From NCBI GenBank assembly GCA_902605365.1, contig CACLCM010000010.1, forward strand, positions 1 to 54,394: a stretch of DNA of 54,394 nucleotides, in the 5' to 3' direction. The notes under the pieces were generated by a model. That model was not told the DNA's origin, searched no databases, and saw nothing but the letters and a program-made list of their open reading frames with translations. This document shows positions 38,255 through 41,788 of the stretch, piece after piece. Every line of letters begins with the position of its first letter. Positions within the stretch are counted from its first letter, which is position 1. A program made the translations under genes and the position numbers. This DNA is from an uncultured Candidatus Poseidoniales archaeon. Lineage in GTDB: Archaea; Thermoplasmatota; Poseidoniia; Poseidoniales; Poseidoniaceae.

Positions 38255-39280
38255 ATGGATCTAATTCAGGCGGCTTGGATGATCCGAGATATAGGCCAGC
38301 CTGTAAGCTCAGTTCACATCTGTGAAGATGCTTCAGTTATCGCAGGTGGATGGAATGGCATCCTGAAGAAATGGGACCACGAGGGAGCAATATTGTGGAG
38401 CGCTCAATGTAATGACCGTATAGAATCGATTTTGATAGTCGATAATTTGGTGGTTGTAACCTCTGGTTTACATGTCACTTGCTTACTAGATGGCGAAATT
38501 CAATGGAGTCATCCTTTGGAAGGTTCTGCAGATATGTTAACATTCATGAACGGCCAAATCATTGCTACGTCTAGTGTTTATGACATAGAACATGGAGATT
38601 TTATGGAGAGTGCAATATGGAGATTTAGCCCTAGTGGCGAATTAATTCAAGTTGACAGAATGGACGAGAGGCCATGGTTTATTCATCCAAGTGATGAGTT
38701 GATTGTTGGTCTAGGACGCCCTAAGTGTGGGGTACTAATTGGCGAAAACCATCAGGATTTAGCAACTGAATCTCCTGTAACCTGTGGTGGATACGGCGGG
38801 GAGCGCGTATTATTCGGACATGCTGATGGCACAATTTCCTCCCTAGAGGGTACTACAATTTCCAAAGAAAGCTCATCAATAGAATCACTAGATTGCACAG
38901 AGGCTGGCTTCACTGCAGCCTTAGAATCGGGAAAATTAGTTTCACGAAATGCCGATTCGCAAGAGCTTTGGACATCTGAAGGTGAACAGATTACTACCCA
39001 ATCTTCAACTTTTGAAGGACTCAACTGGTGCGGGCGCAAATCAAATGATTCAGGTTCCATTGAAGTTAGAGATACTAGCGGCGATTTGGTCGCTTCAGCA
39101 AAAACCGCATCCCCTCGAGTATCAACATCAAGTGAAAATCGTATCGCATTCGGATTTGAAGATGGTCAAATTTTAATTTGGGAGAAGGATTTGTTCGAAC
39201 GCCGTTCAAGTGAGAAATCCTCTGCCTCAGATAGTAGGAGTTCTGCCCTGGCTGCGAGGCTCCGCTCCTTGCGAGAATAA
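38255..39280 (+). CDS. Beta-propeller protein, WD40/PQQ-like
   Basis: The 341 residues form about seven repeats of 40-45 residues with strand patterns like SSVHICEDASVIAGGWNGILKKWDHEGAILWSAQ, ERVLFGHADGTISSLEG and NRIAFGFEDGQILIWEKD. That is a soluble WD40/PQQ-type propeller without a signal peptide. The C-terminal 25 residues are Ser/Arg-rich and may be disordered. A short hairpin, TCCGC-N6-GCGGA, lies at 38236-38251, immediately before the ATG. It is the last protein gene before the large structured RNA. Confidence 0.78.
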   Translation: MDLIQAAWMIRDIGQPVSSVHICEDASVIAGGWNGILKKWDHEGAILWSAQCNDRIESILIVDNLVVVTSGLHVTCLLDGEIQWSHPLEGSADMLTFMNGQIIATSSVYDIEHGDFMESAIWRFSPSGELIQVDRMDERPWFIHPSDELIVGLGRPKCGVLIGENHQDLATESPVTCGGYGGERVLFGHADGTISSLEGTTISKESSSIESLDCTEAGFTAALESGKLVSRNADSQELWTSEGEQITTQSSTFEGLNWCGRKSNDSGSIEVRDTSGDLVASAKTASPRVSTSSENRIAFGFEDGQILIWEKDLFERRSSEKSSASDSRSSALAARLRSLRE

Positions 39281-39374
39281 TGTTATTTCTTGGCTTTTTA
39301 TTCCAGTGGATGCAGTGGAAAGTATCGTCGCAGACCCACGTTTCCGCTGGAAAAAGGCCGAAAAAAGCGTAAAG

Positions 39375-39382
39375 TTTATTTG
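39375..39382 (+). promoter_or_regulatory. TATA-like box of the structured RNA
   Basis: TTTATTTG, preceded by a purine-rich AAAAAAGCGTAAAG stretch, lies about 25-30 bases before the first stable hairpin (39407). The distance fits archaeal transcription beginning near 39404. No coding start is found in this position. Confidence 0.55.
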
Positions 39383-39403: not shown

Positions 39404-40283
39404 TTGCCGCTCCTCAAGGAGTGGTGGAGGACTTCTCCGGAAGTCTTCCGGGACCCTTGCCAACCGGCCTGCTCAAACCGAGCAAAGTGTTGGTCACAAA
39501 CCTTGGAGACAGGGCAAGTGAGGCAATCAGGGAGAGACTAAACTTTCGGGTTTGGTAAGTCCCCTTGCCCACAGGACGATCTGGAACTTCGGTGAAGGAT
39601 GGCCACAGGACCTTCGGGAAATGTGGTACAGGGAGGGCTGCAACTTCGGTTGCAGAGGTACCAACTACTGTGCAATCAGTCGGGAGGAGTAGCAGTAACA
39701 GTTCTTCGGGACAACTTCAGCTACAACAAACGGCTAGGTAGAAAGCTTCGGCTTGATACCATCGGGCGGAAACCGAACTAGGAAAGCGACCTTCGAGAAG
39801 CAGAACTGGAAACGGACCTACCACGGACGGAAACCGCGCTGTACCTTCTTCGGAAGGTACGGAGACGGACCTCCGAGGTCAAAGACCGGATTGGAGAGTG
39901 ACTTTCGGGAAACTCACCAATAACGGATTGGCCACCGTTGGCGGAAACACGAGCACTTCGGTGCAAAATGCGGAAACCAACACCGGTTGAAAGGAATCAG
40001 AACTCTCGGGTTCTGTGGACTGAGACCACCCTGGGAACTAACCACTTCGGTGGAAGGTGAACAGGTCCCGGCCGCTGGGAAGAAGGCATCTTGGAAACAA
40101 GAATGTCAACGATCTGGAATCCACTCTTCGGAGTGAAGGAAGGTGACGACGACCCGGCAGCCACCAGCGGAGGCTGGCAGGGGGGCGGATATCCCACCCG
40201 GATGAAACCCCCCTGCCAGTTCTCCCATCCTGCTTTCACAGGTAAACGGGTGCCAGTGCGTTCCGCTTATGACTCTTGAGGGC
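39404..40283 (+). ncRNA. Large, highly structured non-coding RNA of unknown family
   Basis: The roughly 880-nt stretch has no plausible protein gene and is visibly more GC-rich than its neighbours. On the plus strand it has nine C(UUCG)G elements (c at 39587, 39612, 39644, 39704, 39746, 39848, 39956, 40045, 40126). Perfect stems include CTGCAAC/GTTGCAG at 39638-39655 (7 bp), an 8-bp stem at 39841-39860, and a 12-bp stem at 40174-40185/40208-40219. CGG-AAA-CCG mini-hairpins and a GAAA-capped hairpin (40089-40100) also occur. UUCG stability is strand-specific, so transcription is on the plus strand, in line with the TATA box. CCTCAAG (39412-39418) could pair with CTTGAGG (40275-40281) to close the ends. 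I see no RNase P, SRP, tmRNA or intron core. The ends are estimates. Confidence 0.82.
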
Positions 40284-40301
40284 GCAATTATTCATCGCGC
40301 C
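40281..40301. terminator. Small hairpin between the structured RNA and fumarase
   Basis: GGCGC (40281-40285) pairs with GCGCC (40297-40301) around an 11-nt AT-rich loop, between the end of the RNA and the fumarase stop codon (minus strand, 40318). It may end one or both convergent transcripts, but no long U-tract follows on either strand, so the role is weakly supported. Confidence 0.35.
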
Positions 40302-40317: not shown

Positions 40318-41709
40318 TTACTTCGAGCCGGTCATTTCTTCTGGCCTTACCCATTGATCAAATTCTTCATTTGTTAGATAATTCAATTCTAATGCTGCCT
40401 TTCTCAAAGTAGTACCCTCTTCGTGAGCCTTTTTCGCAATCTTTGCGGCTTTGTCATACCCTATGTGATTGTTTAATGCAGTTACCAACATTAGTGAATT
40501 TTCCAAGTGATTTTGGATCGCATCTCTATTAGGAGTAAGTCCAACAACGCATTTTTCTGTGAAAGCTCTCATCGAGTCCGATAGAATCTGAACACTGTGC
40601 AATAAGTTGTGAATCATCATTGGCTTGAAGACATTCAATTCGAAATTACCCTGGCTTCCTCCAATTGTAATCGCAGTATGGTTGCCCATCACTTGACAAC
40701 AAACCATGGTCATTGCTTCTGACTGAGTTGGGTTTACTTTACCCGGCATAATAGAAGAACCAGGTTCATTGGCAGGTAGCGACAATTCACCAAAACCACA
40801 ACGAGGGCCAGAACCTAACCAGCGAATATCGTTTGCAATTTTCATTAGGCTTACAGCCAATGTGTTCAATGAACCGCTAGCCGAAACAACGGCGTCATGT
40901 GCGGCCAATTGAGCGAATTTGTTTGGTGCAGAAACAAATGGCAGACTAGTTTTCAGAGCGATTGCAGACGCAACTCTGTTTGCGAATTCGGGGTGAGTAT
41001 TGAGGCCAGTTCCAACCGCCGTTCCACCCAATGCCAACTCATGTAAATCCTCGAGTGCGAATTCTACTCTTCGGATATCAGCGTCTAGTTGAGAAACCCA
41101 TCCACTTGCTTCTTGACCCAAGGTAAGAGGTACTGCATCCATTAGGTGGGTACGTCCAATTTTTACAATATCAGCCCATTCTGAAGATTTGGCATCCAAA
41201 GCGTCTCTCAATTTCATGAGATTTGGAAGCAGATTCAGAGTGAATGCTTCAGCGCTAGCAATATGCATGGCTGTGGGGAAAGTATCGTTGGACGATTGCG
41301 CCCTGTTAACGTGGTCATTTGGATGGACAGGTTCTTTCGAGCCAAGAACTCCTCCTGCAATCTCGATAGCCCTATTCGCTATTACTTCATTCGAGTTCAT
41401 ATTCGACTGAGTGCCAGAACCTGTCTGCCATACACGTAGCGGAAAATGGTCATCTAATTCCCCATTGATTACTTCTTCTGCAGCTGCAATAATCAATTTT
41501 GAAACATTAGAATCCAGTTGCCCTAGATCAGAATTAACCTTTGCAGCAGCTTGCTTGAGGATGCCAAATGCCCGAATGACACCGCGTGGCATTTTATCGT
41601 CACCAATATCGAAATTGATTAACGACCTCGCAGTCTGACAACCATAGTACATGTCAGCCGGAACTTCCAACTCACCCATGGTGTCTGCCTCTATGCGCAC
41701 ATCTCCCAT
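40318..41709 (-). CDS. fumC: Class II fumarate hydratase
   Basis: FumC interconverts fumarate and malate in the TCA cycle. The sequence shows [23 protein letters not shown] (active-site Thr/Ser region), the [16 protein letters not shown] motif, [16 protein letters not shown] with the catalytic His, and the superfamily signature [11 protein letters not shown]. The family's usual length is about 460 residues; starting at the ATG at 41709 gives 463 residues and the standard N-terminus [17 protein letters not shown]. The longer frame to 41763 is unlikely. It is divergent from the sulfotransferase-like gene. Confidence 0.97.
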
Positions 41710-41788
41710 GATAGAGCGGGTGTAGGCGGTTGTCCATGTCCCTTTCCCTCTCGCAACCGTCAAAGGTGTGAATCTAGAGCATTGTGCA

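Follow-up and report, generated by a model that had tools for sequence, protein, structure and literature searches.

Large, intricate RNAs such as OLE, GOLLD and ROOL occur in bacteria and phages, and two of them build RNA cages; ROOL and GOLLD are phage-borne and lie near tRNAs. The label 'large ornate RNA' is common to unrelated bacterial classes, and the RNA described below would be, to our knowledge, the first archaeal one beyond rRNA, RNase P RNA and SRP RNA. In GOLLD, a universally conserved 3' region is accompanied by a less conserved 5' region (PMC12286853). Our literature search for a large RNA of MGII archaea found Tan1 alone, a 229-nt noncoding RNA with a complex predicted structure that was highly abundant in a Red Sea metatranscriptome (mdRNA-Seq), ranked 5th in RNA-Seq, was reported beside the RNase P and SRP RNAs, and has five homologues at 75-79% identity, including Thalassoarchaea (PMC5069720).

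Here we analyzed a stretch of 54,394 nucleotides from an uncultured Candidatus Poseidoniales archaeon (GCA_902605365.1, contig CACLCM010000010.1; hereafter the window), which carries a predicted RNA of about 880 nt. It shares with GOLLD a conserved terminal region beside a less conserved body (PMC12286853), and with both GOLLD and ROOL a size in the hundreds of nucleotides, many covarying hairpin domains, and the lack of an adjacent protein partner and of a known function. Unlike those two, it resides at one locus of an archaeal chromosome and is vertically inherited. It resembles OLE in being large, ornate and chromosomal, but differs in having an archaeal rather than an extremophilic bacterial host, no Rfam match, and no co-conserved partner gene adjoining the RNA. 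The archaeal RNase P and SRP RNAs are also stable, structured and several hundred nucleotides long, but they are separate genes elsewhere in the clade. Like Tan1, it is an unassigned, structured noncoding RNA of MGII, whereas Tan1 was reported at 229 nt.

The locus and its sequence content

The RNA interval (39404-40283, plus strand) is flanked by a PQQ/WD40-like beta-propeller ORF (38255-39280, +) and by fumC (40318-41763, -). A first-pass annotation had placed it between hflX and fumC; the direct upstream neighbour is instead the beta-propeller ORF, with hflX lying farther out. The same annotation described a gene-free, GC-rich stretch behind a TATA-like box, which agrees with our finding of TTTAT at 39375-39379 and of no conserved ORF in the stretch, the five ORFs inside 39404-40283 yielding zero matches in a Pfam scan. 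Its boundaries fall within a few bases of the unit defined by comparison, which runs from the first base of the 5' motif TTGCCGC (39404) to the end of the predicted closing helix (near 40284). The nine C(UUCG)G elements it had reported, all in plus orientation, were recovered as nine CTTCGG within 39587-40131 on the plus strand only, and the CGGAAACC repeats were found at 39767, 39828 and 39971 as described.

Elsewhere in the window (the other 53.8 kb), CTTCGG occurs 18 times on both strands together, so that a 545-bp interval would contain about 0.18 sites at the window background; the corresponding Poisson P for nine or more (about 5e-13) is approximate because local GC exceeds the background. 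Eight of the nine sites cap or fall within a predicted consensus hairpin of the genus alignment, and the ninth (39746) lies inside a gapped stretch of alignment columns. What had been observed at this locus is thus confirmed.

Comparison with known RNA families

A search of the whole Rfam 15 library at gathering cut-offs returned no family match in the window, RNaseP_arch (RF00373), Archaea_SRP (RF01857), OLE, GOLLD, HEARO and ROOL included, and a lax search (E up to 10) produced chance-level matches only. This bears out the earlier failure to match the stretch to RNase P, SRP, or group I or II introns; no intron core was matched in Rfam, and the stretch is intergenic and interrupts no gene. 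The RNase P RNA of the same genome was located on another contig (G000:C17:24810-25106, 226 bits), and RNase P RNA was found in 35 of the 41 genomes searched. SRP RNA scored above cut-off away from the RNA locus in 19 of 25 genomes, with none found in the window's own genome, which is 60% complete. A search for tRNAs in the window found none, and the setting of GOLLD and ROOL, in a phage or prophage near tRNA islands, was not found there. At the level of RNA families the sequence is novel, with nothing related in Rfam or the collections searched.

Evidence for a conserved fold

Against dinucleotide shuffles, the plus strand gave a folding z of -5.2 (-3.3 in an independent run) and the minus strand -2.7 (-1.8), and the plus strand had the lower folding energy in 10 of 10 members. 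RNAalifold predicted 238 pairs with 94.1% canonical cells from a 21-sequence genus alignment, compared with 35-44% canonical when the partners were slid by 1-3 columns. Two-sided changes were present in 121 pairs; 200 control alignments, generated along the tree with the same substitutions, gave 56±5 such pairs (maximum 69). The Thalassarchaeaceae alignment likewise gave 80 two-sided pairs against a null of 33±4.5, with a poorly resolved interior (132 pairs, 88% canonical). The structure used in the main covariation test was derived from the same alignment, which was mitigated by a hold-out in which training subsets were folded and the held-out groups scored: these were 96%, 94% and 84% canonical versus 34-47% for slid partners, with 48-129 compensatory states.

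Order-wide covariation was also detected in the 3' terminal hairpin (0.285 vs 0.090 shuffled, 0/500) and in helices P2 and P3 together (0.371 vs 0.221 shuffled, 0/500). An all-pairs, APC-corrected G-test with a tree-based null on the 21 genus sequences had too little power, yielding one pair at E <0.05, and structure-level statistics, tree simulation and hold-out were used instead; since this test yields a single significant pair, the support applies to the predicted structure as a whole. The minus-strand structure of the genus alignment showed 111 compensatory pairs and 91.7% canonical cells, as expected from strand symmetry, and we preferred the plus strand because the folding of the minus strand was poorer in each of the 10 members. 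Covariation across the syntenic interval of other Poseidoniales, proposed earlier as a check, is strong within the genus and extends order-wide in the 5' and 3' modules. Covariation and hold-out agree in supporting a folded functional RNA rather than random sequence, as well as the large-structured-RNA reading of the first-pass annotation. With helices kept by compensatory change, the locus is almost certainly a real structured RNA gene, and the comparison supports a conserved plus-strand gene with its own promoter anatomy.

Promoter and upstream inverted repeat

A BRE/TATA promoter element (CGTAAAG-TTTAT; 39368..39379, +) precedes the RNA at a fixed distance. The distance between the start of TTTA[TA] and the first base of TTGCYGC is exactly 29 nt at 44 of the 49 loci, drawn from both families, and the sequence separating the two is variable among the 49 loci. 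In the window, the TATA box lies about 95 nt past the stop codon of the upstream ORF. The spacing between TATA box and transcription start is well established in archaea. From this spacing and the TATA position, the 5' end of the RNA would fall on 39404 or slightly ahead of it (±3 nt), and its 3' end is placed by the closing helix.

Farther upstream lies an inverted repeat at a conserved position, CAGTGGAAA-N19-TTTCCGCTGGA (39313..39351, +; halves 39313-39321 and 39341-39351), seen as CAGTGGAAA...TTTCC at about -92/-64, counted from the 5' motif of the RNA, in the majority of loci from both families. It occurs a single time in the 54-kb window. In a set of 70 genomes, the pattern is all but confined to the RNA locus (one match for a reversed-pattern control); it is found mostly in RNA-bearing genomes, and most RNA-less genera are without it. 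A few scattered single matches elsewhere in these genomes look like chance. The repeat likely serves the RNA gene as an operator or activator site, and its near-private association with this locus genome-wide implies a dedicated regulator.

Parts of the predicted RNA

The whole RNA spans 39404..40284 (+; about 880 nt), as delimited by homologues and the 238 consensus pairs. Its 5' end, matched by CM R3 at 39404-39454, begins with P2 (39406..39425, +), an 8-bp hairpin (GCCGCUCC/GGAGUGGU) conserved order-wide, in which 98.8% of cells are paired among 21 sequences from both families. The adjoining P3 hairpin (39426..39449, +) has an outer helix that covaries order-wide, occurring as GGAGG/UCUCC, GUGGG/CCCGC and GUCGG/CCGGC, with two-sided changes in four of the five outer pairs counted. 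The 5' strand of a proposed closing helix, P1 (39451..39459, +), was paired by RNAalifold in the genus with a partner near 40277-40284; it is 93% paired in the genus alignment with zero two-sided changes, and hence unproven. The Thalassarchaeaceae have an equivalent, GGGCC/GGCCC directly ahead of a U-run, and several of their RNAs end in GGCCCA followed by T-rich sequence, complementing the conserved 5' GGGCC. P4 (39460..39493, +) consists of an outer helix (100% paired, no two-sided change), an asymmetric internal loop and an inner hairpin (39471-39474/39480-39483; two two-sided pairs), a layout that by eye recurs in genera g2 and g17.

Downstream, a long hairpin (39522..39569, +) comprises two covarying helices with two-sided changes in 4/4 and 11/12 pairs. 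It is followed by a branched domain (39570..39672, +) closed by CACAG/CUGUG and bearing three UUCG-type hairpins, whose inner helices show two-sided changes in 5/6, 5/6 and 6/7 pairs. The variable central region (39679..40064, +), which differs strongly in length among genera, is a series of hairpin domains in the genus helix table (39679-39734, 39773-39815, 39825-39874, 39878-39932, 39937-39981, 39986-40027 and 40031-40064, all +). In the 3' domain (40070..40162, +), a 10-bp helix (40070-40082/40150-40162) closes two hairpins, one GNRA-capped (40085-40107, its loop reading GAAA or GCAA in most members of the genus) and one UUCG-capped (40122-40135), and the domain has 6, 4 and 5 two-sided pairs at 92-100% canonical. 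The most conserved module is the 3' terminal hairpin, GCGGAG-(12-bp stem)-CUCCCA (40163..40230, +), which CM R2 matches in the window at E 8.7e-20. A conserved genus 3' tail (40231..40284, +) ends at the proposed 3' strand of P1, with columns conserved to about 40284. Pairing of CCACCA, before the 3' hairpin, with the 5' UGGUGG was ruled out, the variants being uncompensated.

The 5' and 3' modules are thus constant and the interior varies, the alignment of homologues carries many indels, and RNA length across the order ranges from about 440 nt, in a compact form in genus g19 (locus L075), to about 1000 nt. The UUCG caps, which the first-pass annotation had taken as an argument for a folded RNA, are not conserved: relatives carry 0-12, and loops interchange (CTTCGG, CTAG, TTG) on retained stems. 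Selection acts on the stems rather than on the caps, the UUCG caps being a lineage trait. In several genomes of genus g15 (L066, L100, L101, L107, L108), the 3' terminal hairpin is tandemly doubled about 300-330 nt apart, with one 5' module ahead of both hairpins in L066. The interior of L085 (genus g16) holds several near-identical purine-rich repeats (GAGAACTGGACGCAAGGAAGGGGGAGGAAGGGGAAGGAAGCGGAG), which suggest that the RNA can grow by internal duplication.

Distribution and inheritance

A DNA search found homologues in 25 of 61 genomes, its own included, with most of the 27 genomes of its own genus (which takes in the MAG named MGIIa-K1) among them, and the full-length matches shared 72-98% identity. 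In 22 of these 27 genomes the same beta-propeller gene is directly followed by the RNA, with fumC usually coming next; in at least one of the misses (G007), the contig stops right after the propeller gene. Relatives were also found by anchoring on the propeller gene and extracting the downstream sequence, and in most Thalassarchaeaceae genera 740-1130 nt with the same RNA ends follow that gene. CM searches for the 3' hairpin (R1, R2) and the 5' hairpins (R3) agreed in placing the RNA in each of the 11 sampled genera of Thalassarchaeaceae (g12-g22) and, of the 11 genera of Poseidoniaceae, in two (g1, g2); under strict filters, by which weak forms could be missed, the modules were not found in Poseidoniaceae genera g3-g11, nor credibly outside both families in 293 genomes drawn from the phylum.

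R3 matches with E 1e-3 or weaker among other Thermoplasmatota resemble background, some being the 17-nt P2 hairpin alone; an R2 match in G351 (L106) falls within an ORF and is attributed to chance, as are pattern matches at background scores in Pseudomonas, Billgrantia, Bacteroidales and Synergistaceae. Searches of viral contigs, phages and plasmids found no copy. One contig with the RNA (L135, JAOMAZ010000026.1) is filed as Deltaproteobacteria SAG AH-558-G13; it also carries a Poseidoniales propeller gene, so we rejected horizontal transfer and regard the contig as contamination or a misassignment.

In RNA-less genera, the interval is 13-143 nt long, is filled by unrelated coding sequence, or is not bounded by fumC at all; the intergenic fillings of g3, g8 and g10, considered as diverged RNA, look like unrelated coding sequence. 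About four state changes are required on the fumC tree, two of them forced by well-supported branches, which suggests that the RNA was probably lost more than once. Its absence from most Poseidoniaceae genera indicates that it is dispensable. Copy number is mostly one per genome. Two propeller-plus-RNA loci were seen on contigs C34 and C42 of G048, a MAG with 3% contamination, reflecting a second copy or mixed genomes, and two differing 3' RNA portions on separate contigs of G011 (L013, L026) probably reflect a strain mixture. The convergent fumC is not adjacent in L075, L135 and L146, and the propeller gene persists in most Poseidoniaceae genera, which are RNA-less. Neither neighbour is thus an obvious partner, given that fumC adjacency is dispensable and the propeller gene survives without the RNA.

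Discussion

The best overall explanation, with a probability of roughly 0.6, is in our view a large noncoding RNA that is encoded by a chromosomal gene and acts in trans as a scaffold. The RNA would be transcribed from its own TATA promoter, and the upstream inverted repeat is probably the binding site of a dedicated regulator. Two modules that are constant throughout the order (5' P2-P3-P4 and the 3' terminal hairpin) would fold around the length-variable interior, with P1 probably holding both together. The constant ends may form a core that binds a protein or a second copy of the RNA, and the expandable interior may supply the body of a particle, either RNP or RNA-only, a logic comparable to that of OLE, GOLLD and ROOL. 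An own promoter and action in trans appear highly probable, the latter suggested by the promoter together with the dispensable neighbours; a role as scaffold or particle rather than as catalyst or regulator is an even call. The RNA very probably does a real job, since its shape and promoter are kept order-wide despite sequence drift.

Compatible with the scaffold explanation, and bearing on novelty, is a possible, though less than even, identification of Tan1 as a part or processed piece of this RNA, which would then be expressed and have been partly seen earlier. Both are unassigned structured noncoding RNAs of the same archaeal group, Tan1 is abundant, and Thalassarchaeaceae RNAs come near its homologue identity of 75-79% within genera. 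However, Tan1 measures 229 nt against about 650-1000 nt. If they are identical, transcription is shown, and our finding amounts to describing, at full length, across the order and with its promoter resolved, an RNA that had been glimpsed before.

The scaffold idea has a more specific version, an RNA-only homo-oligomer (a cage or dimer like those of ROOL, GOLLD or OLE), to which we give a minor share. The size and the layout of constant ends with a variable body do resemble GOLLD and ROOL (PMC12286853), and the RNA is mostly single copy with no obvious protein partner adjoining. Yet the Rfam models show it to be unrelated to ROOL, GOLLD and OLE, and, unlike ROOL and GOLLD, it is absent from phages, plasmids and viral contigs and sits in a window without tRNAs. 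No more probable is a trans-acting regulator or sequesterer that titrates a protein or pairs with mRNAs under the inverted-repeat factor. The private inverted repeat at fixed spacing suggests such dedicated control, and repeated losses suit a non-essential role, but conservation falls mostly on double-stranded stems, and the size and number of domains go beyond the usual need of such sRNAs.

Far less plausible than either is a cis element, either a 3' UTR or terminator of the propeller gene or an antisense control of the convergent fumC: although the RNA lies downstream of the propeller gene at every examined locus and mostly faces fumC, it is preceded at a constant distance by a TATA box of its own, which in the window lies about 95 nt beyond the stop codon of the upstream ORF, fumC adjacency is dispensable, and the propeller gene occurs without the RNA in most Poseidoniaceae genera. 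A divergent known RNA (RNase P, SRP, an intron or a piece of rRNA), which one would expect a priori of a structured, GC-rich RNA of such size in an archaeon, or else a pseudogene or coding region, has next to no chance, as even at E 10 Rfam yields chance-level matches only, RNase P and SRP RNAs are encoded elsewhere, the ORFs are without Pfam match and the alignment is rich in indels.

On balance, we favour a trans-acting scaffold, and it is rather probable that the locus represents a new class of large ornate RNA with an order-wide core, a dedicated promoter-operator, and an unprecedented function as an RNP or RNA-only particle. MGII are abundant, uncultured ocean archaea, and a comparable RNA there would mean that such RNAs arose in archaea too. 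As a single gene at a fixed place, with a conserved core and a private regulatory site, it offers a practical handle, and its natural presence and absence across sister genera may be used to seek a partner protein and ecological effects.
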